Shown here one piece after another: positions 33,000 through 61,136 of a DNA stretch of 64,000 nt (its first letter is position 1; each line of letters opens with the position of its first letter). Position numbers and translations under genes: made by a program. Source of the stretch: Pseudoalteromonas prydzensis (GTDB taxonomy: Bacteria; Pseudomonadota; Gammaproteobacteria; Enterobacterales; Alteromonadaceae); the NCBI RefSeq assembly GCF_011050055.1, contig NZ_DRGM01000049.1, positions 30,858 to 94,857 of the forward strand, in the 5' to 3' direction. The notes below the pieces were generated by a model. It made no database searches, was not told where the DNA came from, and was given only the letters and a program-made list of their open reading frames with translations.

Positions 33000-33023
33000 A
33001 TCTGTCACCATTTCTGTCACCAC
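33000..33023 (+). other. Left attachment repeat (att)
   Basis: A 24-bp sequence made of two CTGTCACC units separated by ATTT, identical to the copy at 61113-61136. Similarity stops on both sides, as expected for an integrase core. Confidence 0.85.
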
Positions 33024-41695: not shown

Positions 41696-41922
41696 AATTG
41701 TTGCACCTTTTTGTAAAGTGGTTTCCATGTATGAATGAGGAAGCCGACAACAAAAGCTGCGGTTAACGGCCACCAATTAAGATCTGAAATAAGAGTCAAT
41801 ATAGGTAATAAAAAAAGTATCACGATAATGCCTATTATCGAAATACCATTTCTAAAAAACCAGCCGATGAATAGTCCGATAAACCAAAAGAAGCCTAAAA
41901 AAATGAGTGTGTCTGTATTCAT
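41692..41922 (-). CDS. Small membrane protein in the coupling-protein operon
   Basis: 76 residues, nearly all in three hydrophobic helices (FLGFFWFIGLFIGWFF; IGIIVILFLLPILTLI; WPLTAAFVVGFLIHTW). Overlaps the downstream J-like gene (ATGA) and follows the VirD4-like gene by two bases. The coupling ATPase here has no membrane helices of its own, so this protein may supply its membrane anchor. That role is inference. Confidence 0.55.
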   Translation of the reverse strand: MNTDTLIFLGFFWFIGLFIGWFFRNGISIIGIIVILFLLPILTLISDLNWWPLTAAFVVGFLIHTWKPLYKKVQQL

Positions 41923-41924
41923 CC

Positions 41925-43385
41925 CTATAACCTCAACGTAGTATCAAAATCTAGCGTGATTGACGTCTTACTTGTTTGTGCTGGTGCTTTTTTAGTGAAC
42001 CGTAAATAACGTCCATGCTCAAAGTAGCTCATACAGGTAATAATGGTTGGTTGCTTGTAAGTTGATATAAACACTGCTTGATTACTTTGCATCGTTCTGA
42101 GTTGATCAGGTGCTAATAATGGCATGTGTGCATAGGATGTTTGAATATCCGTAAAGTTTTCACGCTGGCTAATAGTGCGCTCTCCAATCACCTTTGAAAA
42201 TTCGGTATTGGTATCTAAATCGCTTCCTCTAAAAATAAGGTAACTGCCAATACCTGCTTTAATGGCTTTTGCTTTTTGCTCGCCGTATTTGTCGTCAAGT
42301 TGTGAGATCCCTTGAAAAACCAGTGAGAGCGAAACACGGTACTTGCGTACATTATTAATGCTAGTATTGAAGTCATTAATGTAACAATTTCCCATTTCAT
42401 CAAGAAATCCAAAAATATCGAGTTCGTTTGGTGTCGGTTTGTGAGCCATCACAGTAGATAAAAAACGTGTATAAAATAAGTCGATTATGAACTGATAATA
42501 GGCTTGTTTAGATTCGGAAAAGTTTAAATAGATAATAACTTTTTGATTTCGAATATTTTTCAAATCTAAGCTATCGGTACGCATTAATTCTCGAACATTT
42601 TGATTATTGAGTTGCTTCAGGGCTGTTTTACAAATGGTGACATAGCTACTGAGCATTTTTTCGTTATTAGTGGTGATCCCTAACCAAGACTCCCAAAGTG
42701 ATCGATCATCTGAGTCAAATGGGTTAATAGAGTTTTCAGCTACCCAATTATCAAGGCTAGTTCCATCACTGCCAAATCGTAAAACCAGAGAGTTTAACTC
42801 AACCAGATTAAGGTTATTTGGCTGAGAGTAGGCTAGGCATTTAGCTAAAACTTCGAGTATTGAAATTGCGCCTTCGTTCCACATAGGCTCTTTGTCTGAG
42901 CCATATTTTGACATAATGATAGAGGCACATATTTGCTCTATTTCAATGGTATGTCGTGCATCTAAACCAACAAAAGGGTTAAAACGTGAAGACGATGGCA
43001 AGTCTTCGGGGCATAAACGCACAATACGAAAACCCCTTGAGACTAAATGACCACTGGTGAGTTGATAGACTTCACTACTGGGGTCATTCACTACTATAGA
43101 GCAATCAGATGAGCCGAGTTCTAATATTGTTGGGATAATAAAAGCTGTTGTTTTTCCTGAGCCTGGTTTAGCGATCACGGCTACATGTTCAAATGAATCT
43201 TTGAGTGACAAGCGTTTATCATTTCCGTTAATCAGCAAGCCTTTGTTGCTGGTTGAGAACATTGAGGTCAGTTCAGCTTTATTGGCAAAACGCGCTCCTT
43301 GCTCTTGTACCAGTAATTTTTTCTTGGCAATAAAGTTTCCAATACTAAACAGGCTTGAAAAAGTATCTTTGATGATTTTAGACAT
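41925..43385 (-). CDS. Type IV coupling protein (VirD4/TraG-like ATPase)
   Basis: 486 residues. Walker A is AVIAKPGSGKTTAFIIPTI near residue 75, Walker B FGFLDEMGN near 322, and there is a conserved NDPSSEVYQ near 105 after the first strand. These fit the VirD4/TraD family that brings relaxase-bound DNA to a conjugation pore. Unusually, no N-terminal transmembrane helices are visible. Sits two genes downstream of the relaxase, within the mobilisation operon. Uses standard code throughout. Confidence 0.85.
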   Translation of the reverse strand: MSKIIKDTFSSLFSIGNFIAKKKLLVQEQGARFANKAELTSMFSTSNKGLLINGNDKRLSLKDSFEHVAVIAKPGSGKTTAFIIPTILELGSSDCSIVVNDPSSEVYQLTSGHLVSRGFRIVRLCPEDLPSSSRFNPFVGLDARHTIEIEQICASIIMSKYGSDKEPMWNEGAISILEVLAKCLAYSQPNNLNLVELNSLVLRFGSDGTSLDNWVAENSINPFDSDDRSLWESWLGITTNNEKMLSSYVTICKTALKQLNNQNVRELMRTDSLDLKNIRNQKVIIYLNFSESKQAYYQFIIDLFYTRFLSTVMAHKPTPNELDIFGFLDEMGNCYINDFNTSINNVRKYRVSLSLVFQGISQLDDKYGEQKAKAIKAGIGSYLIFRGSDLDTNTEFSKVIGERTISQRENFTDIQTSYAHMPLLAPDQLRTMQSNQAVFISTYKQPTIITCMSYFEHGRYLRFTKKAPAQTSKTSITLDFDTTLRL

Positions 43386-43387
43386 AA

Positions 43388-43723
43388 TCAGCGCTCCCTA
43401 TTGCAAGAGTGATTTTTATTTATGTTAGAGCGCGCACGACTTTTTCTTTGCTTAGCAATTTGTTGGTTTCGTTGAAGGGTTTGTTGCTGCTTTTGTTCGA
43501 CTTGTTGAGCGAGTTCATGATTTTGTTTTTGTTTTACATGTAAACGAGATTTTCGTCGTTGTTTTGATTGTTCATTTTGCTGAGCAAGTACTTCGGCTTT
43601 TTCATCTGCTTTTTGAGATGAAGCTGGTTTAATATAAGGAGGCTGATCATCACTGACTTCTTGACCCGCACGACTTGCAGAAAAGAAGCTAAATAAGCCA
43701 TCAAAAAAGCCAAAGATATCCAT
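43388..43723 (-). CDS. Small Gln/Lys-rich protein of the mobilisation operon
   Basis: 111 residues, with a short hydrophobic N-terminus (MDIFGFFDGLFSFFSASRAG) and a long Gln/Lys/Arg-rich coiled coil. It lies between the relaxase and coupling-protein genes. Ends in TGA two bases before the next ATG, so UGA is a genuine stop in this operon. Function unknown; perhaps a DNA-binding or bridging protein. Confidence 0.6.
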   Translation of the reverse strand: MDIFGFFDGLFSFFSASRAGQEVSDDQPPYIKPASSQKADEKAEVLAQQNEQSKQRRKSRLHVKQKQNHELAQQVEQKQQQTLQRNQQIAKQRKSRARSNINKNHSCNRER

Positions 43724-43741
43724 ATACTCACCTATAAATAG

Positions 43742-44695
43742 TTAGCGTTCAAAATCATTATTGTTTTGTTTGTTGTCATTGTCTTTTCTATTACTGCGCT
43801 GTGTATTCACCTGCGCTTTTCTACGTTCTACTTCATCATTGTTAGTCTGTGATTTATCATCGCTTTGTTTCGATGAAGGTGATGGTTTTTCATCTTTTTG
43901 TTTGTGTTTCGATTGTGATGAGAGAGATTCAATTTGAGTAAAGGCTTCTTCTAATCCGAGTGTTTTTAAGCGATACTTTTTATTATCAAAGTTGGTTATA
44001 AAGCCAATAGTATTTCCACGGTTATACATTTCAATATTCTGCTCAGCTAAAGAAGTAAAAACATCATTCATTGATCGACTTTGTGAAAAAATATCACGGA
44101 GTGTTTGAGTGACTTTTTCTTTCTTTTCAAGTCGCCCACCTTTGCGTTGTACTTCACCAGCCTTGTTTGATTGCTTTTGCTTTTTTTGTTCATGAGTCGC
44201 ATTTAAAAGAATATCTTGTTCAAGTTCTGGGTAGGTTTCAATGACGTATTTTTCTGTTTCTTTTTTAACTTTATCAAATTCGAATTTGGTTAAACGCTGG
44301 TTTTTCGATGAGTCAATTTCATTACTACTGATCATTAAATGAAAATGTACGTTGTTACTTTTTTCATCATGCAAATAGCCTGTTACTAGATTATGCTCAC
44401 AGCGTTTTTGGGCATATCGTTGAACAATATCAAAAAGTCGCTGCTTTTCTTGCTCTAGAGTTAATTGTGATGATTTCGTGATAGAAATGATTTCATGAAA
44501 TAGATAATTGCCATTTTTTCGAGATCGTACTTTTTGAGCATTTGCTGAAAATTCAGCAACGATATCTTTATCTTTTCGTGCATAAATATTTTGAGTGAAA
44601 AAATCATATTCACTATTTTGTGATGAGCCATTTTTCATGTAATGGTAGAGTTGCGAAAAGCTTCGGCTTTTACGACTCATCGACTTTATAATCAT
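43742..44695 (-). CDS. Mobilisation relaxase (MobA/MOBP-like)
   Basis: 317 residues. The N-terminal relaxase domain shows the three-histidine metal motif as NVHFHLMIS near residue 120. Candidate catalytic tyrosines are in FSQLYHYMKNG near residue 15. The C-terminus is a Ser/Asn/Gln-rich disordered tail. It nicks oriT and pilots the strand. Overlaps the MobC-like gene by four bases. No primase or helicase domain is attached, as in mobilisable elements. Confidence 0.85.
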   Translation of the reverse strand: MIIKSMSRKSRSFSQLYHYMKNGSSQNSEYDFFTQNIYARKDKDIVAEFSANAQKVRSRKNGNYLFHEIISITKSSQLTLEQEKQRLFDIVQRYAQKRCEHNLVTGYLHDEKSNNVHFHLMISSNEIDSSKNQRLTKFEFDKVKKETEKYVIETYPELEQDILLNATHEQKKQKQSNKAGEVQRKGGRLEKKEKVTQTLRDIFSQSRSMNDVFTSLAEQNIEMYNRGNTIGFITNFDNKKYRLKTLGLEEAFTQIESLSSQSKHKQKDEKPSPSSKQSDDKSQTNNDEVERRKAQVNTQRSNRKDNDNKQNNNDFER

Positions 44696-45063
44696 TTATT
44701 CGCTTCCTTTGTAATAAAGGTAGCTATGCCATCTTCAAGCTTTTTTAATTCCATTAATAAATCACGTTCATCAACCATTACTTTTAATGTGTTCGAACGA
44801 TGGGCAATTTGATTAATGTTATTAGCAACATTGCGCAGTAAATATTTCATTTCTTTTATTTCATTTTGCAGTTGGGATGAAATAAACGGGGATTTATTTA
44901 GGTGATGTTGAACCAGTTGGGCGATAAATGAGGTTGGTTTGGTGTGATTGAGATCAGCAAGATAGCTCACTTTAGTAAACTCATCAGCAGATAGACTTAT
45001 GTTGATTCGCTTTCGCTGATCAACATAGTCATCTAAATATTGCTTTCTCTTTGCACTTACCAA
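44692..45063 (-). CDS. MobC-like relaxosome accessory protein
   Basis: 123 residues. The ribbon-helix-helix-like N-terminus (KRINISLSADEFTKVSYLA) and the LLRNVANNINQIAHRSN stretch near residue 80 are typical of MobC proteins, which bind oriT and help the relaxase. First gene of the minus-strand mobilisation operon. Its upstream region is the candidate oriT. Confidence 0.8.
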   Translation of the reverse strand: MVSAKRKQYLDDYVDQRKRINISLSADEFTKVSYLADLNHTKPTSFIAQLVQHHLNKSPFISSQLQNEIKEMKYLLRNVANNINQIAHRSNTLKVMVDERDLLMELKKLEDGIATFITKEANK

Positions 45064-47960: not shown

Positions 47961-48854
47961 CTAAAAATTCAACGGATGTTTATTTACCTGCTTATGCAGG
48001 TGATTTACTGATGCGCTTAAGTACTTTTCGGTCGTTGAAATATCACTGTGTCACATCATCTTAGAAAGAGCGTATAGATCACAACCTCACTCAAGCATCA
48101 AAGTGGCAAAGGTTCTACGTAATTTATGAGCATAAAACGAAATTCAGCTATATTGCTTTAATTTTGTGATATACGTTCTTAATGAGTTGTAACACATGCC
48201 AGTATCACTCTGACTTGAAGTAAAAAAATAAATACACTTTCTATTGAGCCTCATTCGATGCTCTAGGTATTTTTCTAATGAGCTTATTAATGATATAGGC
48301 ATTGGTATTATCCTGTCTTTAGCGCCTTTTCATTGCTGTACAAATAGCGTTCTATTTTTAAGGTCAATATCCGACATTTTGAGCATTCTCAATTCTGAAA
48401 ATCGAATGCCGGTATATATAAATGTTGAGATAATGGCAACTCATCTTGCTTTGTAAAATTGATATTGTGTCGGCATATTTCTAGCGTATTCGATCAGATT
48501 TGATGCTTGGTCTTGAGGAAGTCATTTCATTGACCTTTTGGGTATCCTAGGTTTTGGAATTCAAAGTATAGGATTCTCATCAATAATTTTTTCATTTACA
48601 CACCATTTTAAGAAAAGGCTTAATGAACACATATGATTTTTAATGGTTTTGGGTGCCCATTTCCTATCGATTTTTCAGTGAATGATAAAGTTTTCGATAA
48701 ACTCTTTGTTCAACTCTTCAATATACTCAATAGGTCTATATTTTAATAACAATCAAAATTCACTTTTTAAACTTTTAATAGTTCGAGGCGAGTACCCAGA
48801 AAATATTTCAGAATACACAAGGAATTTTTTATGAAGTTCTACAATATTTTTCAT
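47961..48854 (-). CDS. Tyrosine recombinase 1, readable only with UGA = Gly
   Basis: 297 residues when UGA is read as glycine. The frame has nine TGA codons, no TAA or TAG inside, and ends in TAG. An N-terminal SAM-like core-binding domain (residues 1-110) precedes the catalytic domain with R151 (in TGIRFSELR), the QGKGAKDRIIPM loop, H243-x-x-R246 (HKLRRTF), H269 in GHSDIS and Y278 (EKYLS). UGA supplies the first Gly of GKGAKDR (48330-48332), one Gly of LEGG and the Gly of GHS (48051-48053), all strongly conserved. No Shine-Dalgarno precedes the ATG. Under the standard code it would appear as six or more fragments. It is similar in spacing and length to the recombinase upstream, so they are probably paralogues. 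Confidence 0.88.
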
Positions 48855-48876
48855 AGCAAAAAAAATAACAAAATAA

Positions 48877-48919
48877 AGAGCCAGTAGTCATCGGGCTATA
48901 CCCGAGTATCACTGGCTCT
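48877..48919 (-). terminator. Long hairpin between the two recombinase genes
   Basis: AGAGCCAGT pairs with ACTGGCTCT and an inner TCGGG pairs with CCCGA. T-rich DNA lies on both sides in the respective directions, so it may act as a bidirectional terminator after recombinase 2. Confidence 0.7.
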
Positions 48920-48968
48920 CATTTTTGCTAGTTTTTATTGTTGTTTTTTGGCTTTGTGTTCTTCTAAA

Positions 48969-49020
48969 TGGTTGCGGGGACAGGAATTGAACCTGTGGTC
49001 TACGGGTTATGAGAACACCA
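48969..49020 (-). pseudogene. 3' fragment of an initiator tRNA (tRNA-fMet)
   Basis: The minus strand reads CTCATAACCCG, then a T-arm ACAGG-TTCAATT-CCTGT, then CCCCGCAACCA. This matches the anticodon-to-3'-end half of initiator tRNA, including the CAU anticodon and encoded CCA. The 5' half is absent: there is no TGCGGGG acceptor partner and the 5' anticodon strand does not pair. Fragments like this are left when a tyrosine recombinase integrates at a tRNA 3' end. The T-stem keeps perfect pairing but differs from the E. coli sequence, so it may derive from a foreign tRNA. Confidence 0.8.
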
Positions 49021-49137
49021 GTCGTAGAAATACAGCCTGTTTTTTCCCTTTATTTAGCCAAAAATTAACGATAAAGTCGTTGTTTGCAAAATGATAGTCA
49101 GTGACCATCGGGTGAAAGCATCTTATTGATAAATTCT

Positions 49138-50034
49138 TTAGTGTCAAATTAAAAAATCAACATTACAAATTTGCTTTTTTAGAGTTTTTAATGAAATAGA
49201 TAAGTACCTTTGTGTTGTACTAATATTTGAATGTCAAAGTACTTCTTTAATTGTAAAAAGATTAACTTCCGCCTCTATGGCCATTCTAGCAAAGGTATGT
49301 CTTAGCATATGTGGTGAGAAATAAACTCTTGAAGCCTTTCTAATCTTATCGCACATGTAAGCTATATTTTTTTGACTTAGTTGCTTGTGCGATCTCACAC
49401 TGGTAAAAAACCAATTTGAAGGTGATAGTAATAGTTTTCGAGTATTAACATAGTCTTTTAACCTAAAAAGAAGCATTTGATGAATAGGAATAATTCGATC
49501 TTTACCTCACTTACCTTTTCTAATATAGATTTCACTTTCGACTAAATTTACATCAGCTATTGTAAGATTTAATAATTCTTGCAACCTGATTCAAGAAAAT
49601 AATAGTGTTGAAATGATAGCTATATTTCTAGAGCGTTCAAGCTTGTATTTCCACGGATATGAATCTGTTGAAAACAGGATACTTTTCACATCTTGATTTT
49701 CAATAAACCTTGGTAATGCCTTGTCTAATTTCGGTCTTGGAATGTCAATAACAGGGTTTTTCTTGATGTAACCCTTTGCTGAACACCATGTAAAAAATGA
49801 TTTAAGATTTTGCCACTGATTTCTATAGGTTTTTGCTGACCAACAGCGATCTTTACTTCTAGCGATCAAAAAACTTTCTAGTAGCTCTGATGTATATTGT
49901 TTTACATCTTTATCAGGTAGATCATGCATTAGTATGTTTAGAGTACTCAATACGCTTTTATAACTTTTAGCTTTATTTCCTTTAGCCACTAAAAAGTACT
50001 TTTTAAATCAATTTAACAACTCTGTTATCTGCAT
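49138..50034 (-). CDS. Tyrosine recombinase 2, readable only with UGA = Gly
   Basis: 298 residues from the ATG at 50034; the frame crosses five TGA codons and ends in TAA. A GTG at 49989 would avoid the first TGA but cut the first helix. Catalytic residues R150 (GIRLQELLNL), the KGKGGKDRIIPIH loop, H242-x-x-R245 (HMLRHTF), H268 in GHSNIS and Y277 (TTQRYLS). UGA falls on the Gly before I-R (49591-49593), the Gly of KGKG-GKDR (49507-49509) and the Gly of GHS (49234-49236), three near-invariant positions. No Shine-Dalgarno. Followed by a tRNA-fMet fragment, a hairpin and recombinase 1. Confidence 0.9.
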
Positions 50035-50114
50035 ATGGGTTACTTAAAATTATTATCTAAAAGCTTATAATTAGAATATAATCAGCTTATTCGTACTTCA
50101 AAAAAGGAATTAAA

Positions 50115-50993
50115 TTGAACAGCCAATTATGGAAAAGTATTAGTGATTTTGTTGAACTAAATGAATATCCGAAACTGCCATGCCCGTTTTGTCACGAAGT
50201 AGAATTAACAATAGATAAAAACAGCGTTCAAAGCCGTGCATTATCTAAAAATTATGAGAAATCAGCTCCTTCACGACATTTTCAATCAGTTAAAAATAAG
50301 CTAAGTCAGGAAATATCTGAGCAAAAAAATACCATTAAAGAAATGTATGATGAGAATAAACTCTTAGGGGTTCTTCTTGGTGCAGGACTCGTTTTCACTC
50401 GACTTAATCAACCTAATTATGAGTTTCATAAGTTTATTGCATTTATGTCTTGCCAAAGCTGTGGTGATAATGTCGCAGTCAATGGCTTAGCTCAAATTCA
50501 TAATAAAACTAGACAAGATCAAGTTCAATTAGTGCCTATTTATAAGATTGAACACTTTTCGACTCCAATACCATTATTCAAAATTGATTCATCTGTTCCT
50601 ACTAAAATTCAATTAGAGTTACTAGGTGCATTTAGTTATTTTCATATAGACACCAATTCTTCGGCAAATAAACTACGTAGAGCTATTGAGCATTTTTGTA
50701 GAGAGCTGAATGGTGGCAATGCTAAATTAGCCCACCAAATTCAAAAGTTAAAAAAGACTTACCCTTTGGAAGCTGATCTACTTGATACTTTAAGATTAGT
50801 TGGAAATGAAGGCACGCATTCCGATGGTGTCGATGAAGATGATTTATTAACTGCTTTTAGGATTTTTGAAGAGGTTCTTACTATTTTTAAGAAACAAGAG
50901 ATACTCAATGAAATGAAACTAAATCAGAAAATATTAACTGATAAATTCGATAAAAAAATGTTAACTGATGAGAATGTTGTTTCTACACAATAG
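50115..50993 (+). CDS. DUF4145 protein with zinc-ribbon cysteines
   Basis: 292 residues from a TTG at 50115 with AAAGGA upstream. Two cysteine pairs (CPFCHE near residue 22 and CQSCGD near 118) suggest a split zinc ribbon, and the C-terminal DUF4145 domain is seen at LRRAIEHFCRELNG and LLDTLRLVGNEGTHSD. DUF4145 domains are frequent in restriction and other defence proteins, often fused to nucleases or helicases. Standard code with about a dozen GGN glycines and no in-frame TGA. Converges on a recoded gene across a shared terminator. Confidence 0.75.
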   Translation: MNSQLWKSISDFVELNEYPKLPCPFCHEVELTIDKNSVQSRALSKNYEKSAPSRHFQSVKNKLSQEISEQKNTIKEMYDENKLLGVLLGAGLVFTRLNQPNYEFHKFIAFMSCQSCGDNVAVNGLAQIHNKTRQDQVQLVPIYKIEHFSTPIPLFKIDSSVPTKIQLELLGAFSYFHIDTNSSANKLRRAIEHFCRELNGGNAKLAHQIQKLKKTYPLEADLLDTLRLVGNEGTHSDGVDEDDLLTAFRIFEEVLTIFKKQEILNEMKLNQKILTDKFDKKMLTDENVVSTQ

Positions 50994-50996
50994 TAT

Positions 50997-51029
50997 TATT
51001 TGATATGGGATTAACTCCCATATCAAATA
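50997..51029. terminator. Bidirectional terminator
   Basis: A perfect 14-bp stem (TATTTGATATGGGA/TCCCATATCAAATA) with loop TTAAC, between the convergent DUF4145 gene and the small recoded gene. The minus-strand TAA of the recoded frame lies inside the loop. Confidence 0.85.
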
Positions 51030-51445
51030 TTTAATTGCTCGAATAGATATTTGCAGAATTTATCTTCAACTAATTCAGCTATATCCATTGAAATATTATC
51101 TTTGAGATCTTCAACTGCATTTTCAGAGTAATCAAAGCTACTACACATGAAATTACCGTGTACATATATTTCAGTTCAAGCTCCTGTAAAGTCATTAACA
51201 AAATCATACCCAGTTACCTCAGATATCTTACTTCTAGCTTCTTGCATCACATGGTCAAGAACTCAATATACAGGATCAATATTGTCCCAACTTTCAGAGC
51301 CAATGCTTTCACGAAAATCATTAATGATATCAAATAACTCATTTTCACTCATATCAAGATCGTCACCAATTTTACAAACAGCACGAATATCTAAAGAGCC
51401 AAATGGGCAAAAGTAACCTTGTAATTCACTCACTGTATTTCTCAT
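51011..51445 (-). CDS. Small unknown protein, UGA-recoded
   Basis: 144 residues if UGA is Gly (ATG at 51445, TAA at 51011-51013). TGA codons lie at 51263-51265 and 51176-51178, plus a third at 51023-51025 four codons from the end. If that last one were a true stop, the protein would be 140 residues. The text reads naturally through the sites (DPVY-G-VLDHVMQEA; NDFTGA-G-TEIYVHGNFM). Acidic, no signal peptide, no family recognised. No Shine-Dalgarno. Lies downstream of the standard-code helicase on the same strand. Confidence 0.7.
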
Positions 51446-51597
51446 AATTCAAGAAATTAATTAATAAAGTGATTTTGAAACATCGGTATGACGCAAGAAG
51501 TCAAAGAACCGTTATTTTACAAGGTACGTAGGAAAATCGGTTATTGACTCGCAGGGTCAACCGATATAATTACTGAACTTTATGATTATCTAAACAC

Positions 51598-54588
51598 CTA
51601 GTTGTTGGTAATAACTCTTAATTTAACACCGCTAATTTCATCAATGTAAGCAGCTGTTGCACCTATAATAGAACGCTGATCATCCGATATTACAGATTTT
51701 GAAATAGCTGGCTGTACAATTGCGACACCAAGCCTAAAAGAAGAGTATCGAGCAACTTTAGCTAGATGGACTAAATTTTCGTAATGGCCTTTGTCTATCC
51801 TTGATGGCTTTTCTTGTTGTAACCTTTTACGTTCCCTGTCCATCAATCGTATGATTAACTTTTCTTTATCACCAAACCATTTGATACTTTTAGCTGCTTG
51901 ACCAATGACTTCATATACATCACTAACTCTTGCACCTGGACTTGCTATACCATTCTTCTTAGAACAATATTTACAGTGAAAAAGATCAATAACCAGTTCT
52001 TTATCATCGATGTTTTTTATCGCTACAATGTCTGCAATCTCTCCAGCTCCATCATCATCAAATACTAAATCATAATTATCTTTTAACTTTTGAATTGTAT
52101 GATATTGAATTGAGTTAGTAATTTTTTCAGGTGTTTGTGACTCAATAGAGATATCAATACCCGTCCAATCCCAACACTCTATATTATTTTTGTCATACCT
52201 ATATGCATATTCTTCATTAGGGTAATATCTAAAACCACCGTCTATAACAGACGTATCACATAGAAATAACGTAGGGGGGTGCTCGGTGAAGAATTCAGTA
52301 AGTTGATATGATTGTTCTCCAAATTTAATCTCAACATTTTCGTTGGAACTAAAGTTAACTTCACCGTGAGAGACGATAGTTGCTGTGATGATTATCTCAC
52401 CATATTGCGATTTTAAAACAATATTAAATGTTTTCGAATCATCATCTTGTTCTTTGGCAATTAATAATTCACAGTGAATTAAATTCTCTTGCCAACCAAT
52501 AGAGTGAATGGTGACTTTAGTTTCATTTTTTCTGAGTAATTCTACTGGCCATTCAACAGTTAGAGGTACAACCGTGGGGTATTCAGATAATTCTTCCGTT
52601 TGCATTGCTGTTTTCATAACTTGATTCGTATCAATTGTATCATCCAATACTTTTGTACCAACTTGATTGCACCAAGCAACCCACTTATCTAGAGAATCGC
52701 TATCCATTGCCCAAATCTTCCCTTTATAAGAACATCCTAAGCTAACTAATTGACCGTTTTCATAACCTTTCCCAAAAACATTTGATTTTATTGCTCTATT
52801 TGCCTCTATATCAGGGATTTGTTCATTAATTTCAGTACCTGTGTGCATTGAGTAGCGTAAGCCTTTCTTGTTTTTATTCAATCCAACATTTTGAAGTTTT
52901 AATCTTTTAAGGCCAGCCAAAGATCTGAATACATGCTCTCCTTTTATTTGAAAAGAATTTTTAGCAATTAACTTAGCAAGCCTCTTTACCATTCCATCTT
53001 TGGCTGATGAATGAATGAATAGCAGATCATTAACTTGATCATAATAGGCAATATATAAATCCCATGATTCATCAAATAACTCTTTTGAGCTTGTCCACCC
53101 AACTGGTATATATGATTTTACTGAAAAAACTAACATAGTTTTTTCATCATTTAGAATATAATCAGAAATTTGAGCTTGATGAGTTGCAAATAGTTGGTAT
53201 CTTTCAGGTGACCATGTCGCATGTTGCATTGTATAAATCGTTGTACTAATGCTAGGCTTTAAACCTAGATCTAATAATTTACTCGAATTAGAAAATTTAG
53301 CTCTGAACTCTTGATACTCCTGTTCATCATTAATTTTACGAGAGCTAATATCGCTTACTAAGGAGTTCCAATCAGAGTCTTCTTTATACAATTCTTCTAG
53401 ACTTTCATTGACATTAGGGTTTGCTATATTAGCAATAAATTTAGCGTCACCGACATCTGCTATTGTTCGTGTAAAACGACCTGTAAATTGAAGCATTATA
53501 TTAATACTTTTATGCGGGACATGAATGGCTGATATTTTTAATTGTGGCAAATCAAAACCTTCGCCTAACATGTTTACGCAAACAATAACTTTATGCTTTC
53601 TATCGATAATATCTTTTAAAACTTCTGCTTTTTTCTTAACTTTACTATTTATTAAGATTGGATTTAAATCTTTTTCTAGAGCATAAATTTCAAAAATTTC
53701 TTCAGCCTTTGTTATCGTATTAGCTCTTGCCATAAGTATATGGTCTAGACCTGCATTGAGATCTGCTCTTAAAAGAGCTATGGCTTTGTCTGCGATAGCT
53801 TTGTCTGCATTTTCTTCTATAAACTCTTTAACTGGATGAAATTCTATAGGTTTAAAATATCCATCTTCTTGTGCTTTTTTTAATGGATAGTTAAAAATTA
53901 TTTTCCCTTCAACCCTTGAACCATCACTTCGAAATGGTGTGGCAGTGAATTGAAATACAGACTTATTATCAAAGCTTGATTTTATTCTTGCCCAAGTTGC
54001 TGCTGTTACGTGATGAGCTTCGTCGACTATAAGATGACTACAATTATCAATTAATTTATAAAAAAATTGATCCGTGAATTTAGACAATGCCGAAGCGGAA
54101 GCTACAATAACATTTGCTTTTAGTAATTTATCTAAATCATCTAGATCATCTACTCCATGCTTGATTGTAGCAACTACAGGGTTTTCAACAGTGTCACCAA
54201 TTAAGCCTAACTCTCGCAAAAGACCAAGTTGAACAAACTTATTTTTGGTTTGTTCACGTAATGCATCCGATGGAACAATAACTAGTGTCTTTTTAAAGTG
54301 CCCAGCTACCACAATAGAGAGTATGGTTTCAGTTTTCCCCGTTCCTGTAGGCATAACTAATGTTGCGGCAGATTTACTATCAGAACGTTCATAACCTAAT
54401 GCAGCAAAAATACCTCCAATTTGAGGTGACCTTAGTCCCTTAATTTGATTTTCAATATTTTCTTCTTTGAACAAAAAATTAGAATTACACCAAGAAGAGT
54501 AAATATCTTTAGGTGTAGTTTGTTCAGTATCAATTGGTTGCCATGTAATAGTGCTATTTTTTATTTTGCTTTCTTGTAAATCTGCCAT
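51598..54588 (-). CDS. SF2 DEAH-box helicase, defence-type
   Basis: 996 residues, standard code. Walker A is VMPTGTGKTETIL near residue 80, the DEAH box LIVDEAHHVTAATW near 190, motif III FQFTATPFRSDG near 215, and motifs V-VI are MLGEGFDLPQL and MLQFTGRFTRT (about 340-375). The C-terminal 600 residues are unrecognised but include a late E-x-x-D-x-F-H-C-K-Y-C stretch that could be nuclease-like. Such lone helicases in islands often belong to antiphage systems. Preceded by AGGA. It has many GGN glycines and no UGA, unlike its neighbours. Confidence 0.8.
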   Translation of the reverse strand: MADLQESKIKNSTITWQPIDTEQTTPKDIYSSWCNSNFLFKEENIENQIKGLRSPQIGGIFAALGYERSDSKSAATLVMPTGTGKTETILSIVVAGHFKKTLVIVPSDALREQTKNKFVQLGLLRELGLIGDTVENPVVATIKHGVDDLDDLDKLLKANVIVASASALSKFTDQFFYKLIDNCSHLIVDEAHHVTAATWARIKSSFDNKSVFQFTATPFRSDGSRVEGKIIFNYPLKKAQEDGYFKPIEFHPVKEFIEENADKAIADKAIALLRADLNAGLDHILMARANTITKAEEIFEIYALEKDLNPILINSKVKKKAEVLKDIIDRKHKVIVCVNMLGEGFDLPQLKISAIHVPHKSINIMLQFTGRFTRTIADVGDAKFIANIANPNVNESLEELYKEDSDWNSLVSDISSRKINDEQEYQEFRAKFSNSSKLLDLGLKPSISTTIYTMQHATWSPERYQLFATHQAQISDYILNDEKTMLVFSVKSYIPVGWTSSKELFDESWDLYIAYYDQVNDLLFIHSSAKDGMVKRLAKLIAKNSFQIKGEHVFRSLAGLKRLKLQNVGLNKNKKGLRYSMHTGTEINEQIPDIEANRAIKSNVFGKGYENGQLVSLGCSYKGKIWAMDSDSLDKWVAWCNQVGTKVLDDTIDTNQVMKTAMQTEELSEYPTVVPLTVEWPVELLRKNETKVTIHSIGWQENLIHCELLIAKEQDDDSKTFNIVLKSQYGEIIITATIVSHGEVNFSSNENVEIKFGEQSYQLTEFFTEHPPTLFLCDTSVIDGGFRYYPNEEYAYRYDKNNIECWDWTGIDISIESQTPEKITNSIQYHTIQKLKDNYDLVFDDDGAGEIADIVAIKNIDDKELVIDLFHCKYCSKKNGIASPGARVSDVYEVIGQAAKSIKWFGDKEKLIIRLMDRERKRLQQEKPSRIDKGHYENLVHLAKVARYSSFRLGVAIVQPAISKSVISDDQRSIIGATAAYIDEISGVKLRVITNN

Positions 54589-54716
54589 AAGGGATGTCCT
54601 AGTTATCCAATTAAATTTTTATTAATTATTAGGTCAATTTATCATCAGAATGTTACTAAAACCATATAAACCTTAAACATTTAAAGTTGGTGCTATTAGT
54701 AATAGATTCGATCAAG

Positions 54717-56405
54717 TTATTCTGCTTTTACTGATAAATTTTTCCTTGCCTTATTCTTATTAAAACTCCCACTTTCATTAATCAGTCAGTGGCTTTTTAA
54801 CAAGTATTGCATCTGAGTTCTATCTTCTGCTTTTCCTCACATTCAAATATGAGCTTCCACAGATAAAGGTTCATCAGGATTTCAGCTGATCATTTTGTTA
54901 TAAAACTCAATGAGGTTTTGCTTCCATCTTGTTCATCCAGCTTCACTAGGGCTTTCACCAAACATTCCATTGGCAATATCAAGACGGTTTGGGTCTAAGT
55001 GTAAGCCCTGAACATCAAACGAGTTACTTTTTACTTCTTGGATTAGTGAGTCAGTAATCTGCTTATCAATTAAATCAAAACCAATTCACTTAACAAAACG
55101 AAGGATTCATCTTTTTTTGCTATCTTGCTCTTTTACTTTCTCTCTGTTGGCTTGAATAGCAATATCTAGTCAGGTTTTGTATTTTTCCATTGCTGTATCG
55201 AGGGTATTTTGAAATTTTTGCATCAAGCTATCAAGATTACTTGTTTTGAGATCGTCTATATTTTCTATAAAAGACACATCAATTTGATAACACAATTTTA
55301 GTGTTGATTTTATCTCATTAAGTCCAGCTCTATGTTCAGAGAGATCTTTGATATGCTCTTGAACAGCCATAGTTTTTAAAAATCATGCAGCTCTTATTTT
55401 AGGCATAGTATCCATGTAGGCTTTTTGATATTCCAGTTCAGGCTTGTGTAAATCTGCGAGAGGGAAATTAGAGTCTATCGCGTATGAATCACTATCGAGT
55501 GAAATTTTTCTAGAAGGTGGATTTTGTCACATATCAATCGTGATAATTTCATTTTCTTCACCGCGAGATAATAGGGCACTTCACTCCTTTTTGATATTGC
55601 TACCAGAAAGCGATAATAAATAGCTGGTTTCTAACGATTTACTTGATGAATATTTTTCTTCAAACGCTCTAATTTTATCACTAAAACTAGGATCTATATC
55701 GATCAGTGTGAGTGTTAATTCTTGGAAAACACGAGATTCAGGATTTAGTGAATCAGCTTTTTTAGCTGCGAGTAATAGCTTTTGTAGTTCATGAGGGTTT
55801 TCTAAAAGAAGTTCTTTTAGCTCGATGTATGCTGAAGTATCTCAATCGTTGAGCTTGTTTAATAGTTCTAGTGTTTGCGTACCTTCAAGCTCATTGTGAT
55901 CAAGTTGATCATACAATTGTACAAATCGTTCAACGCAGGCTTCATCTGCATTAGAAAATTTTTTATTCATTTCAATATCAGCTGAAAGCTCGGTTCAAAA
56001 CTCTCGATTAAAAAGGCTAATAGATGTTTTATTCGTAGGGAATCAGTTCATCTCTATGTACGAAGCTGATTCCCTACTTTGACTTATTGTGAGGAACAAT
56101 GAGTCAAGCGCTGATATCTTTTGGTGCTTAAGTAATTCAACAAAAGGCAAATATCAGTCATTTTTTTCAAATGTTGCAAGTTTTTCTAATCAAGCTAAAC
56201 GTACTTGAAAGCTTTTTACTTCTGTATCTATTTGACTTCATTCAGCTAAATTTTCCTTAATTTGCTGTATGTATTTGTCTCATAGACTATGTAATGAACT
56301 ATCTCACAATTGTGTATCAAGTTTTCAAGATAATGATTTGATTATGCTTAAACGTTCTTGTTTTTGCACATCAGCTTGTAAAAGCTGTTCCCCCATTTTT
56401 TCCAT
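54717..56405 (-). CDS. 562-residue unknown protein with 20 in-frame UGA codons
   Basis: Reading UGA as Gly gives one frame from ATG 56405 to TAA 54717, crossing 20 TGA codons and no TAA or TAG. By hand count it has about 12 GGN glycines and a single TGG. As Gly the protein would be 5-6% glycine, which is normal; as Trp it would be nearly 4% Trp, which is not. Long helical and charged stretches dominate (LLLENPHELQKLLLAAKKAD; MEKYKT-G-LDIAIQANREKV) with no signal peptide. I recognise no family. It starts 17 bases after the stop of a standard-code secreted gene and has no Shine-Dalgarno. Confidence 0.8.
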
Positions 56406-56422
56406 CTGATTTATAGTTAATA

Positions 56423-56890
56423 TTATTTATAATCTTTACCGAATAATGCCCTATATAGCCTGAGGCTTTTTTCACCTTCTTCTTTTGTTAATTCAACACC
56501 GTACTTTTGTTTGTAGTCTTTTTTAATTTGAAAGTGCTCAGCTAAGAGATGCAGATTTGAAAATTCATCTTTGGGGAGTTGAGTGAAAACTGACGTAGCA
56601 TCAGGATCAACTTCCTCAATATCAGTAAGTAAATTTTTAAATACATTGTTACTTGCCAAGCCAAGTGCAATACCTTCCAAAGCCCATACTTTATCTTTGT
56701 CACTTAATTCTAATGTGTCGTAAAACTTAATGAGTTTCGGCTCAATATCATACATAAAATCAGTCAATATTTGGTTATAAGTGAATTTTGCATAATCAAT
56801 TTCGTAGGCTGATTTTTGTTCTGCGGAAAATGCAAAACCCGAAGTAAAACATACAAAAAGAATCGCTATTAAATATGTTAATTTTTTCAT
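56423..56890 (-). CDS. Small secreted hypothetical protein
   Basis: 155 residues, standard code, AAGGATG before the ATG. Signal peptide cut after FAFSA. The mature protein is helical and acidic with no cysteines. Lies directly upstream of the 20-UGA gene on the same strand and divergent from an XRE regulator, which may control it. No family recognised. Confidence 0.6.
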   Translation of the reverse strand: MKKLTYLIAILFVCFTSGFAFSAEQKSAYEIDYAKFTYNQILTDFMYDIEPKLIKFYDTLELSDKDKVWALEGIALGLASNNVFKNLLTDIEEVDPDATSVFTQLPKDEFSNLHLLAEHFQIKKDYKQKYGVELTKEEGEKSLRLYRALFGKDYK

Positions 56891-56989
56891 AATCCATCCT
56901 TATTAATTTTTGAGGGGTTTACCCCGTGGTAATTTACACCACAAAAATTGAATATTCCAATACTTTTAAAAAGTTCTTTGGAATGAACA

Positions 56990-57235
56990 TTGGATATAAA
57001 AATAGCTTTTGGCCGAGTGCTAAGAGATGTTCGAAAGAATGGTAAAAAGAAGATGTCGCAAGAAAGCTTAGCTCTCGAAGCTAATATTGATCGCGCACAT
57101 GTCTCTAAACTTGAGCAAGGTGTTTTTCAGCCGACACTTTCAACCATATTTGATATGGCAAAAGTATTGGAGTGTTCACCTGCTGAGTTAGTCGATTTGG
57201 TAGACAAAGAGCTACGTGCTAACCAAGATACTTAA
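56990..57235 (+). CDS. XRE-family transcriptional regulator
   Basis: 81 residues from a TTG. Cro/C1-type helix-turn-helix: FGRVLRDVRKNGKKKMSQESLALEANIDRAHVSKLEQG, with dimer-like C-terminus. Standard code. Divergent from the secreted gene. Its last 24 bases overlap, tail to tail, the end of the recoded replication-relaxation-like gene. Confidence 0.85.
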   Translation: MDIKIAFGRVLRDVRKNGKKKMSQESLALEANIDRAHVSKLEQGVFQPTLSTIFDMAKVLECSPAELVDLVDKELRANQDT

Positions 57236-58075
57236 GCTATCCTGCATTGTTTTAAAGCGAAAGTGCGGTCGAAATTTTGCAAATCAACTCACTTGCTCTA
57301 GTCTACGAATCACCGAATCCATACACGACTTATTTTCAAATACGTAATAAATACAACTGTTTTTCTGTGAGCCATATTTTTTGTTTACCACTCAGAGTGA
57401 CAAAAAGAAACAATGCCACTGTATTTGCCTGAGTGCTCTTTTGGCATCATTGCCCATATGTTGCTCAAAGAGAATAAGTTGGCTTCACTCTGGTGAACTA
57501 TAGCCAATAATTGCATCAGGAATTATTTGTAAATCTCAGGCGCTTAGTGAAGCCTTAGATTTAGAGGTAACTCAACTCGATGAGTTATTACTTCACTCGC
57601 GTTCAAAATAACAATGAAAGAAATTCAATCAATATCACTGCCTACTTATCCATTTGATAAACGATATTTTAAAATCAATAGTCGCTATACGATGGTAATA
57701 ATCAGCAGCAAAGAAACAACTTCGCCCGAGTGGTCGTTTTATATTTTCTAGTGAATATTTTCATTGTTCAGCAAGCCATTTGGCTCACCTTTGTGTGAGG
57801 CAATACACTGGAGCAAGAGGTCACTTTCATGGCATAAAACCAAACTGTAAACCTGTCACTAGAGGCTTATCTATCTTCCTTAATGCACGTAAATAACGAT
57901 TCACCGTTGAGATACTTACATTCGGTAAAATAGTACACAGTTGCTTTGATGTAAGGTATTGGAATATGGCTAACGCTTCTAAAACGTAGCTCTGAGCTAG
58001 AGTTGATTTCAATGCGTTAATATTTAGGAGATAAACCTGAAAGATCAATGTGTTTAGTGAGCCTATTTGGCTCAA
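57212..58075 (-). CDS. Replication-relaxation-like protein, UGA-recoded
   Basis: Up to 287 residues (TTG at 58075; a TTG at 58012, four bases after the upstream stop, gives 266). Twelve TGA codons, none TAA or TAG, ends in TAG. An N-terminal winged helix (FQYLTSKQLCTILPNVSISTVNRYLRAL) is followed by a wing and the family-like YCLTQRGAKWLAE, where UGA supplies the Gly, and then IPDAIIGYSSPE-G-SQLILFEQ, matching the PDA and E-x-D-like core of replication-relaxation proteins. In Gram-positives and CPR bacteria this family accompanies a VirD4/HerA-like ATPase, as here. The last eight residues come from sequence antisense to the XRE gene. Confidence 0.8.
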
Positions 58076-59333
58076 AGTTAATTATTTTTTTAAAATAATA
58101 TTTTGATAATTGAATCTTACGTATTTGTTTCCATAGCGTATAAGGCATTGAATGAGCATTATTTAAAAGAAAGCTTGGTACCCTAATTTTAAACGGTAAT
58201 GCCATTGATGACTTTATCCAAAATTCTCAATGTTTCAAGTTTTCTATTTCACTCGCTGGTATTGCTGTTTCATCTTCAATGGCCTTTCTGCTTTTTCGCT
58301 CATTTTGTCAGGCAATAATTACTCATACTCACAGTAATGCTTTTTGAAGATATTTATCTCAACATTGTCCTATGTATTGACTCGCCAGAACAAGATACAG
58401 CTTGTACTTACGTAATTGAGTTAAAGCTTTTTCGAGATCTGGTGATATAAAATTATGAAACTCATCAATAAATAGATAAGTGGGAACTCTTTTTGATTGT
58501 ACTTTATTGGCTCTTTTTAGAGCTATAACACGCAGTAGGGCAACAATAAAACGTCAATAGGCTTCCACGCTATCACTTCCGAGTTCTCACAGTGGCAGTC
58601 TAAATATGATGATTTTCTTCTGTTGTACTAAATTTTCAAGGTCGATTGAATCAGTTCAAGTGAGTAATCGTTGTAGTATTGGATCGTTGAGTAATACTTG
58701 CAGCCTCATTTCTATAGCATGTTTGCTGATTGATAGTGATTTAGCTTTAAATTTTTGAGAGAAAAAGCTGCGATGTAATTGATTCTCTAGCTGTAATCCA
58801 TGCTTTATCAGGTCTGAATTTTCATCATCATTCATAAATCGTTTTAAATCGATCAGTGAGCTATTTCTGCGCCTGAGTAGAGTGCTGACACATGGGTACA
58901 AAATTGCGTTCATTTGACTCGTAGTAGTGGTTCACTTGAGCAATACATTGAATATTTTAATAATTTCTTGCGTCATGAGATTAATACTATCGTCATGTGT
59001 ATCAACAAAACTAAAAGGATTAATTGACGGGTACGCATTTGAGCTTAAAGACGGATCTATATACACTAATCTATCTGCTATTTTTTTGTTTGAAAACTCT
59101 TTAAATCTCGCGATTTCTTTCGACATATCTCAATGTGGATCAAGCAGTACAATGGCATTTTTTGGTTTCGCTGATCGTATTTCAGAGTAAACTAATTGCT
59201 TTATTAGTTCACTTTTTCAACTTCATGTTTTTCAAGAAATATAGATGTGTCTTTGTTTGTGAGAAGTGCTTATTTTCTTGCATAATTTACGTTGGAAAAA
59301 CCAGTTATTCATCATTCAAATAAATCGAATCAT
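58017..59333 (-). CDS. VirD4/TraG-like DNA-transfer ATPase, UGA-recoded
   Basis: 438 residues with UGA = Gly (ATG 59333, TAA 58017). Fourteen TGA codons, no other stops. The Walker A motif SGKTGSGKS (residues 33-41, bases 59211-59237) has all three glycines encoded by TGA. The LLDPHGDM motif has its Gly at 59130-59132 by TGA. Walker B-like LFIDEFHNF is near residue 290. Later KALLGVGVIIAG and LKHGEFWIK also use TGA at conserved glycines. Family members move DNA through type IV secretion systems. No Shine-Dalgarno; an ATG pair at 59315/59312 is an alternative start. In an operon with the replication-relaxation-like gene. Confidence 0.92.
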
Positions 59334-59430
59334 ATCGTTTTTATTAAAATTTAAATGCGCTTTAACTCAGCAGCTTATGTACAATTTTTACAGCAATACA
59401 ATGAGAGTTACTTAAGAAAAATGTTTTCAA

Positions 59431-59453
59431 CTTTACTTATAACATAAGTAAAG
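59431..59453. repeat. Perfect 10-bp inverted repeat
   Basis: CTTTACTTAT and ATAAGTAAAG are separated by three bases. It overlaps the end of the small recoded gene and lies about 100 bases upstream of the ATPase start. Could be an operator or a short terminator; it lacks a T-run. Confidence 0.7.
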
Positions 59454-59622
59454 ACCCTCCATCTTTCGCATACAAGCGAACCATCTTGATGATTCATTGG
59501 ATCTGTTTCGTATTTAAATTCAATAAGTCATAAAAAACTTTCGAACGTTCTCAAGTTTTTTGACCATTACTTGGTTGGTATACGTCGATAGAAATAGACG
59601 TAAGAAATGTTTCTTTTTCCAT
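59437..59622 (-). CDS. Small recoded ORF upstream of the ATPase
   Basis: 61 residues with UGA = Gly (ATG 59622, TAA 59437), two TGA codons (SNGQKT-G-ERSKVF and KQIQ-G-IIKMV). It ends in a perfect inverted repeat. Basic, no family recognised. Same strand as and upstream of the recoded ATPase. Being short, it is the least certain of the recoded genes. Confidence 0.5.
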
Positions 59623-59837
59623 TAAAAAAAGTTAGAAATATATAATTGCCAGACGTCTTAGGCTCAGCAATTATACTCAGCAGATATTAATTCAACATTA
59701 AATTATTAGACTTTTTTTCTAAAATATAAAAAATGCGCAATACAAAGGGGTAAAATTTACCTAAAAAAATGTTCATTTTAAAATTTTTAGTTGTTTTACC
59801 CATATTTATACGTTTATTTGAAAGTTGCTCTATATTT

Positions 59838-61043
59838 TTATCTCATATTTACATTAATAAGTGGCTCTATCATATCGGCTATTTGAGTCAGTGCTGATTT
59901 GCGTTCATCAAGATAATCATAACGATCATAAATCCCTTCCACACCTTTGAGTTTATGATTTAAACAACGTTCAGCAACATGACCAGCGATTCCATTTTTA
60001 GCTAATAAGCTTCGACACGTTCTTCGTAAGTCATGTACAGTAAAATGGGCTACAGGCATTTTTTCTTCACGAAATAGTTTTTGAATAGCAGCATTTAAAG
60101 TGTCAGGACTTATATGCCCAAAGCGTTTACTTAAGCGTCTATTAGGGAAAACGTACTGCGAACCATATGCTCGTAGTTTTAATTCTTGTAACCAGTCAAT
60201 TGTTACTGAATTTAATGGTACAGAGATTCCTCGGCCTGTTTTACTTCTTTCTTGGGGGATATGCCAAAGCTCTGCTTGAAAATCAAATTCCTCCCATTTA
60301 GCTGCTATAAGTTCACCTTTTCGTACAGCCAGTGCAATAAGCAGAGCAGTAGCAAGGTAATTATCCCGTGTAAACTGATTATGGTTTTCTCGAAAACATA
60401 AAAAGATTTGTTTGATTTCTTCAAGTGATAAAGCACGACTTCGACTTTGTTCGACTCCACCTGCGTCAGATAATGTAAAAGCTTCGGCTGGATTCGTTGT
60501 ACGTAAATCGAGTTTAATGGAATGACGGAAAAGTTGCTTGCAATACATTAAAGCATCATTGGCTATAGTGGGTCGGCTACTTTCAGCTATATGTTGAATA
60601 ATGGCTCTAATATCTCGTGGTGTAACTTGCTGTATGGATAGCTCACCTACAAACGGGGCAATATCTTTTGTATATACACGTCTAGGGATATTAGGGTGCT
60701 TTAAACGTTTTTCACAGTCTTTTAACCAATCTTCTGCAAGGTCATTCACTGTGTTGATTACTTCTTTATCAAGCCGTTTTCTTTCAGCTAAAGGGTCAAT
60801 ATTTCCATTCTTAATATCAACTTTAATTTGAGCCGCTTGTAATTTAGCCTCAGCAAGGGAGAGCTCAGGGAATTTTCCAAGAGTCATTTCTTTGCGTTTT
60901 TTATAAATACTGTATCGAATCGTAAAAAAAGCGCTTCCCTCATCGCTTATACGAATGTATAAGCCATTTGAGATAGCGTATTTTCCTACGGCCTTATCTT
61001 TGATAAGGCTCTTAATTTTTTGAACTGTAATTATTGCTGTCAT
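59838..61043 (-). CDS. Island integrase (DUF4102-type tyrosine recombinase)
   Basis: 401 residues, standard code, AAGAGG before the ATG. The N-terminal DUF4102 arm-binding domain (GLYIRISDEGSAFFTIRYSI; EMTLGKFPELSLAEAK) is followed by the catalytic domain: R in AVRKGELIAAKWEEFD, HDLRRTCRS, H in NHKLKGVEG and Y in YDRYDY. The start is 70 bases from the right att site, with the gene reading into the island. This should be the enzyme that inserted the island. It is unlike the two recoded recombinases. Confidence 0.92.
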   Translation of the reverse strand: MTAIITVQKIKSLIKDKAVGKYAISNGLYIRISDEGSAFFTIRYSIYKKRKEMTLGKFPELSLAEAKLQAAQIKVDIKNGNIDPLAERKRLDKEVINTVNDLAEDWLKDCEKRLKHPNIPRRVYTKDIAPFVGELSIQQVTPRDIRAIIQHIAESSRPTIANDALMYCKQLFRHSIKLDLRTTNPAEAFTLSDAGGVEQSRSRALSLEEIKQIFLCFRENHNQFTRDNYLATALLIALAVRKGELIAAKWEEFDFQAELWHIPQERSKTGRGISVPLNSVTIDWLQELKLRAYGSQYVFPNRRLSKRFGHISPDTLNAAIQKLFREEKMPVAHFTVHDLRRTCRSLLAKNGIAGHVAERCLNHKLKGVEGIYDRYDYLDERKSALTQIADMIEPLINVNMR

Positions 61044-61112: not shown

Positions 61113-61136
61113 ATCTGTCACCATTTCTGTCACCAC
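61113..61136 (+). other. Right attachment repeat (att)
   Basis: Identical to the 24 bases at 33000-33023 (two CTGTCACC units separated by ATTT). It lies about 104 bases downstream of the yicC stop, so yicC is not altered by the insertion. Confidence 0.85.

Follow-up and report, generated by a model that had tools for sequence, protein, structure and literature searches.

Can genes that treat UGA as a sense codon belong to a bacterium in which UGA ends translation? This question is raised by a 64,000-nucleotide stretch of Pseudoalteromonas prydzensis DNA (hereafter the window), which carries a 28.1-kb island (33000-61136) between gmk and yicC. A first-pass annotation, made from the letters alone, had noticed seven island genes that seemed to read UGA as glycine. 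We compared these genes and their neighbours with relatives in other genomes. Judged from the alignments, UGA is glycine in one gene set of the island, and it is a stop codon in another set of the same island. The reading that we favour, with about an even chance of being right, is a mobile island with two hosts and two codes.

Seven genes are open only when UGA is a sense codon

Seven minus-strand genes between 47961 and 59622 were continuous only when UGA was read as sense. Together they hold 66 TGA in about 2,100 codons, close to the earlier count by hand (about 64 in about 2,090). As also described there, none contains an in-frame TAA or TAG, and all terminate in TAA or TAG. Two of them, intA (47961-48854, 9 TGA; relatives in other genomes) and intB (49138-50034, 5 TGA), encode Xer-type tyrosine recombinases. 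The tra gene (58017-59384, 15 TGA) encodes a VirD4/TraG-type ATPase, and upstream of it lies small (59437-59622, 61 aa), whose 2 TGA are both kept in an 80% identical relative in Pseudoalteromonas rubra. The rr gene (57212-58075, 12 TGA, start uncertain) is Replic_Relax-like. No function is assigned to big (54717-56405, 20 TGA), which has a 66% identical relative in P. rubra, or to g51011 (51011-51445, 3 TGA), which is conserved in P. rubra (2 TGA) and Motiliproteus (8 TGA). For rr, PF13814 reached the cut-off in one relative and fell below it in four others tested. Its structure model combines a winged helix with a nuclease-like domain and weakly resembles BamHI and the nickase Nt.BspD6I in fold; against solved structures there were no sequence matches, and the best fold match had an E of 0.017, with none at E 0.001.

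The block that the annotation described is not continuous. Four standard-code genes without in-frame TGA interrupt it: 50115-50993 (plus strand), 51598-54588 (minus strand), 56423-56890 (minus strand; relatives in P. rubra and Motiliproteus) and 56990-57235 (plus strand), a helix-turn-helix (HTH) regulator that is 85% identical in P. rubra and 59% identical in Motiliproteus. Codon usage differs between neighbours, with 64 TGA against 40 GGN (9 of them GGA) in the first six UGA genes, and 0 TGA and 12 GGA in the 996-aa gene at 51598-54588.

As a control, we counted frames that reach 280 aa and contain 5 or more TGA, both in the window and in 200 dinucleotide shuffles of the island. The island contained 5 such frames, which is the total of the whole window, compared with a mean of 0.005 and a maximum of 1 in the shuffled island. 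At a looser cut-off (140 aa, 3 TGA), the window gave 18 frames, several of them antisense or overlapping artefacts, compared with a shuffled mean of 0.85 and a maximum of 4. Because frames with 3 TGA occur as artefacts at such cut-offs, the case for g51011 rests on its conservation and not on its length.

UGA stands at glycine positions

The first searches were blind, with X placed at every TGA so that glycine was not presupposed. Under this condition, tra matched the VirD4/TraG ATPases (PF02534, E 3.6e-07), and intA and intB matched tyrosine recombinases (PF00589). In the protein database, the top relatives of tra (92, 83, 79 and 76% identical) carried Trp at the X columns, as expected from gene calling with TGA as Trp, and standard-code relatives carried Gly there. 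At the 27 tra columns where at least one of ten loci has TGA, nine standard-code loci had Gly in about 40 of 63 weighted residues and never Trp; Asp, Ser, Asn and Ala came next. The first-pass claim that UGA sits on glycine residues was thus borne out.

In a codon alignment of the window and P. rubra, which scored TGA as Gly, 81 codon pairs contained TGA: 45 were TGA/TGA, 18 were TGA/GGN and 18 paired TGA with another codon. The 18 non-GGN partners encoded Ser (5), Lys (3), Val (2), Thr (2) and, once each, Ala, Ile, Arg, Cys, Met, Glu and Trp. On these alignments, UGA is glycine in the seven-gene set.

The UGA-written genes form one clade under purifying selection

A scan of 84,980 species genomes with the tra alignment yielded 20 loci. 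In the matched stretch, in-frame TGA occurred in 10 of them, and TAA or TAG occurred in none of the 20. P. rubra had 16 TGA, and Motiliproteus, Colwellia sp. 1_MG-2023 and a Colwellia metagenome-assembled genome (MAG) had 7 each; among further MAG loci, L046 had 6, L039 had 3, L040 had 2, and L042, L043 and L054 had 1 each. The remaining ten loci had no TGA, and none of them exceeded 41% identity. P. rubra, Motiliproteus and Colwellia sp. 1_MG-2023 are named strains and not MAGs, and in isolate genomes these genes recur with TGA at identical codons, which contradicts the suspicion that the TGA bases are read errors.

A tree built from 64 tra proteins placed the 22 UGA-written rows on one side of a single branch (support 95/98); this tree left out P0036, P0039, P0043, P0049, P0050, L054 and L055, of which P0036 and P0043 are ambiguous, with one Trp at a TGA column each. 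After removal of 34 recoded columns and of long rows, the UGA rows still formed one branch (Shimodaira-Hasegawa-like approximate likelihood-ratio test, SH-aLRT, 93); this masked tree further omitted L048, L052, L053, P0044, P0047 and P0048. The neighbours of the clade were standard-code groups with Vibrio and Pseudoalteromonas members. The pattern looks like a single old code change within a mobile-gene family, retained since.

The ratio of nonsynonymous to synonymous substitution rates (dN/dS) was 0.05 for tra, 0.06 for rr, 0.11 for g51011, 0.13 for big and 0.15 for small; intA and intB were saturated. In-frame TAA or TAG was absent from 28 of the 29 UGA-gene copies examined. As far as codon comparisons can show it, purifying selection acts on the UGA set and the UGA-written clade has long persisted. 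The marks of pseudogenes (all three stops, frameshifts, relaxed selection) were not found in the UGA genes, and the earlier argument against random decay holds, with dN/dS of 0.05-0.15 where estimable and TAA and TAG practically absent.

One island pairs two gene sets written in two codes

The island is bounded by an identical 24-bp direct repeat at each end (33000-33023, adjoining gmk at 32175-32795; 61113-61136, adjoining yicC), and its G+C content is about 33%, compared with about 41% outside. Beside yicC lies int3 (59838-61043, minus strand), a standard-code tyrosine integrase with an Arm-DNA-bind_3 domain (PF00589, PF13356) and no in-frame TGA. In its site-specific integration, with direct repeats and its own integrase, the island agrees with the yicC-type integrative and mobilizable elements (IMEs). 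Among the mobilization genes expected of that class, MobC and VirD4 were recognized by Pfam, and the putative relaxase had no Pfam or NCBIfam match.

The standard-code transfer set lies on the minus strand. It comprises a MobC-like gene with a TGA stop (44692-45063, PF05713), the putative relaxase of 317 aa, named from its position beside MobC (43742-44695), a small transfer-module gene of 111 aa (43388-43723), a VirD4/TraG-type coupling ATPase (41925-43385; PF02534, E 1.5e-59; TGA-free relatives in all six other genomes) and a DnaJ-domain gene (40940-41776; weak PF00226 match, E 0.00057). Functions are thereby duplicated within the island, which has two VirD4-like ATPases and two integration systems.

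Seven elements were compared gene by gene, namely those of the window, P. rubra, Motiliproteus, two Colwellia, L046 and L040. The small, tra and rr genes carried in-frame TGA in all seven. The coupling ATPase and relaxase were in standard code in all seven, with no in-frame TGA in 13 of the 14 genes; the fourteenth has a TGA at codon 319 of 321, which is probably its stop. Gene ends were read onward from the matched stretch, so that those of a few diverged genes are less sure. The standard set ended in TGA in 10 of 33 genes, including mobC in 7 of 7, and the UGA set (n = 31) ended in TAA (18) or TAG (13). The pattern of genetic code 25, with UGA at conserved Gly and no UGA stops, was found for the seven-gene UGA set only and did not extend across the element. 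These comparisons show, as far as alignments and gene ends can, one island in which UGA is a stop in one gene set and glycine in the other.

The two sets have different histories. The window genes of the UGA set are nearer to Motiliproteus than to Colwellia (tra 58 vs 51%, rr 61 vs 41% identity), and those of the standard set are nearer to Colwellia than to Motiliproteus (coupling ATPase 69 vs 34%, relaxase 64 vs 40%). Identity matrices correlated at 0.56-0.65 between sets, compared with 0.88 and 0.98 within sets. The matrices of the two sets disagree, and the sets have been reshuffled. That the pairing persists despite this suggests that the elements need both sets.

Two further genes, Rep3 (L141) and DUF2958 (L139), were considered as members of the UGA set and dropped, since none of their TGA codons falls within a matched domain and these codons may simply be stops. 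The Rep3-type plasmid initiator gene of the L046 element (L141 9216-10127) has TGA at codons 11, 260 and 286; the latter two may be ordinary stops, and the one at codon 11 is unexplained.

A proposed passage between two hosts

We propose that the standard set is used in the gammaproteobacterium and the UGA set in a host that reads UGA as glycine; the host step is one that we infer, and we consider the proposal about evenly poised between right and wrong. Its fuller form, a bilingual element that crosses into UGA=glycine epibionts and has each half locked to one host by the genetic code, seems to us to stand an equal chance of being true or false. In the gammaproteobacterium, the P4-type int3, MobC, the putative relaxase and VirD4 would integrate and mobilize the island, and the UGA set would be silent, with release factor 2 stopping translation at the first UGA. 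The UGA set (intA/intB, rr, tra, small, big and g51011) would serve a UGA=Gly bacterium, for example of the Absconditabacteria/Gracilibacteria type. In such a cell, mobC and other UGA-ended genes would be read through, rr would act, with its coupling ATPase supplied by tra, and integration at tRNA-fMet would fall to the Xer pair intA/intB, with the half tRNA beside intA as the attachment site.

The bacteria that read UGA as glycine are the Absconditabacteria and Gracilibacteria. According to two papers, code-25 Absconditicoccaceae live attached to gammaproteobacteria, and a preference for such hosts has been proposed (PMC13059738, PMC8080830). For a marine BD1-5 bacterium, another paper describes UGA=Gly as demonstrated by peptides (PMC4032931).

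A link to such a genome may be provided by P0053, a relative of intA that is 59% identical to the window's gene and closer to that of P. rubra (62%). At 3 columns where Gly is conserved it has Trp, and the contig that bears it is 724,625 bp long. Because of these Trp residues, P0053 appears to have been called with TGA as Trp. P. rubra, Motiliproteus and Colwellia also have long contigs, but these gave no full-length entries among the tra or intA matches listed, so that a long contig called with TGA as Trp is probably recoded throughout. The contig of P0053 is thus probably wholly UGA-recoded and part of a code-25 genome.

Between intB and intA, direct reading of the sequence revealed the 3' half of an initiator-tRNA (fMet)-like sequence (48969-49013, minus strand). 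The P. rubra element has an fMet 5' half at the corresponding place, around L037 18230-18266, whose D-arm differs from that of P. rubra's own fMet; the tRNA-fMet of the window's host MAG is identical to that of P. rubra. This identity, together with a spoT gene that matches its E. coli counterpart at 66-68% of DNA positions, suits a gammaproteobacterial host. The 29-nt core of the P. rubra 5' half was found in none of 398 Pseudomonadota genomes and in one viral contig. The fMet half resembles an attachment site that intA/intB would use in a foreign tRNA gene. As a route to code-25 DNA, viral contigs gave only distant relatives of tra and one weak match to intA.

Several observations weigh against the two-host proposal. 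Part of the UGA set is of limited spread, g51011 and big being found in 3 of the 7 elements and intA and intB in 2 of 7, with TGA wherever they occur. The one UGA-gene copy that is not free of TAA and TAG, Motiliproteus big, has an internal one that is a real stop. The code-25 nature of the ~724-kb P0053 contig is deduced from the way its genes were called, an intB relative on a contig of that length was absent from the listed 120 of 688 matches, and no code-25 genome was seen to hold the UGA transfer genes. Of the 50 tra matches listed, 12 were clearly UGA-called; their contigs do not exceed 12.6 kb, and none carries the name Absconditabacteria or Gracilibacteria. Among named standard-code relatives of tra, the nearest are gammaproteobacterial (Vibrio, Pseudoalteromonas), and because of this the tra family may have worked in gammaproteobacteria. 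Relaxases are reported to be rare in Patescibacteria, with 109 in 103 genomes (PMC12102498).

Alternative explanations and the search for a UGA-reading tRNA

The strongest alternative, which we nevertheless consider unlikely, is that the UGA set was captured from a plasmid of UGA=Gly bacteria via epibionts, is inert in the gammaproteobacterium and will decay. Such inertness would suit a P. rubra genome without a decoder tRNA, as well as the real stop in Motiliproteus big and a decayed integrase copy in the P. rubra element (L108 11327-11710) that contains TGA, TAA and TAG. Low dN/dS, the 28 of 29 copies free of in-frame TAA and TAG, the single clade across several genera and the same two-set pairing in 7 of 7 elements despite reshuffling oppose it; because of these, repeated use fits better than one-way capture. 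The first-pass suggestion of captured foreign DNA was qualified: the nearest named standard-code relatives are gammaproteobacterial, and wherever elements were compared a standard-code transfer set accompanies the UGA set.

Less probable still is conditional expression at home, in which a helper (a phage, a plasmid or another element) supplies tRNA-Gly(UCA), as recoded phages do for their late genes. In its favour, phages with suppressor tRNAs are known, and an Absconditicoccaceae phage is reported to carry tRNA-Gly(TCA) (PMC13059738). UCA tRNAs are also frequent enough that ARAGORN, which does detect them where they are present, recovered them in 10 of 80 viral loci preselected by anticodon pattern; the opal tRNAs of viral loci showed no clear Gly type.

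No tRNA was found in the island by ARAGORN (normal, intron and low-threshold modes) or permissive Rfam scans; the 158 and 125 models from low-threshold ARAGORN were spurious and were not used. The element stretches of the relatives likewise gave none by ARAGORN and permissive Rfam scans, and searches by T-arm/anticodon patterns and upstream of eight elements found no suppressor tRNA. A self-encoded suppressor tRNA was rejected on these results. The fMet halves were also rejected as a split suppressor tRNA, since their anticodon reads CAU and both halves are incomplete. Of the annotation's idea of an element with its own decoding, the element stands, being bounded and having relatives in six other genomes, and the decoding is not supported, as no UCA tRNA was found in the island, in the loci of its relatives or among the tRNA hits of P. 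rubra.

Full tRNA inventories covered two genomes, P. rubra (G001) and the window's own MAG (G000). In the P. rubra isolate, a draft genome for which 150 of 266 candidates were scored, we obtained 78 tRNA hits and 31 isoacceptors, including Gly(GCC) and Gly(TCC), and no UCA anticodon. No UCA tRNA was found in the inventory of the own MAG, which is incomplete (224 contigs, 93.8% complete, 8.6% contamination). An anticodon pattern search of seven host genomes gave 63 matches, compared with 69 in a reversed control, which is chance level overall. The exception was genome G006, with 8 matches compared with 0 in its control; its in-element match (G006:C25:19975-20003) was not a tRNA by ARAGORN. The helper explanation is thus opposed by the absence of such a tRNA from the islands and the P. 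rubra genome as searched and by the chance-level pattern counts, and no Gly-identity helper was seen in a gammaproteobacterium.

Pseudogene stops, programmed readthrough sites or sequencing errors are hardly credible: the window does come from a fragmented MAG with contamination, and in-frame stop readthrough in bacterial genes is discussed in the literature, but isolate genomes share the TGA codons, single genes hold up to 20 TGA with TAA and TAG practically absent, GGA is depleted, and Gly stands at the TGA columns.

Other features of the island

Upstream of g51011, a non-coding extended hairpin (51446-51588, minus strand) is conserved in P. rubra (96% identity over 149 nt) and Motiliproteus (77% over 96 nt), with fold z values of -4.2 in the window, -3.3 in P. 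rubra and -0.8 in Motiliproteus. It may be a DNA-processing site. A cargo swap point lies beside it, where the window has the 996-aa gene, which is ResIII/DEAD helicase-like, and the P. rubra element has other DNA (L037 14893-16248).

By eye, a TATAAT promoter-like site was seen upstream of small (window ~59625-59690; L037, L041, L042, L139, L141 and L142), accompanied by TTGACA in L141 and L142. In several elements a hairpin, terminator-like in Colwellia, lies between this site and small; a promoter and hairpin before small make attenuation possible.

The island also carries a polymorphic-toxin-like cargo gene (36044-39820) of 1258 aa with surface-type repeats and a C-terminal Tox-REase-7 domain. 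The cargo of the Colwellia MAG element includes a RexA-like Abi gene and a RhuM-family gene (L139 4668-5645 and 6643-7662). The element is rare, because among the 369 genomes of the class searched a close relative was found in its own genome only; two others had distant relatives (26-27%) without stops.

Comparison with known systems

Alternative genetic codes are often viewed as barriers to gene flow. If the two-host proposal is true, elements that hold both codes, one per gene set, would be mobile DNA adapted to cross that barrier. They would name an exchange route between gammaproteobacteria and tiny epibionts and offer a sequence-level test of epibiont-host pairing. They also serve as a warning that real genes of isolates stay hidden when each genome is annotated with a single code.

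In the open-access literature (subscription papers were not covered), our searches listed no proteobacterial island reported to contain UGA=Gly genes. With code 25 of Absconditabacteria (SR1) and Gracilibacteria (BD1-5), the island shares UGA=glycine alongside GGN codons and gene ends in TAA or TAG; there, however, the whole genome is recoded and a tRNA-Gly(UCA) is present, whereas here the code is confined to part of an island in a standard-code genome in which no such tRNA was found. With the yicC-type mobilizable islands and IMEs, it shares cargo, terminal direct repeats, an integrase adjoining yicC and, as recognized by Pfam, the MobC and VirD4 types of mobilization gene; to our knowledge, none of these is equipped with a further, recoded set for transfer and integration. 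Standard and recoded genes are likewise combined in one mobile genome by recoded phages that bring suppressor tRNAs into standard-code hosts. They carry the suppressor tRNA, whereas none was found in the island, whose reassignment is to Gly; nor is the island a phage by the genes identified, with no phage structural genes among those scanned with Pfam (PHROGs were not searched), so that it does not fall among the recoded phages.

The nearest parallel in print concerns phages of Gracilibacteria and Absconditabacteria, which are said to interact with candidate phyla radiation (CPR) and non-CPR bacteria and to avoid in-frame TGA (PMC10746230). Like the island, these code-11-compatible phages are mobile DNA with a presumed passage between code-25 and standard-code bacteria. 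By avoiding in-frame TGA, the phages are readable in both codes, whereas the gene sets of the island are each readable in one code only.

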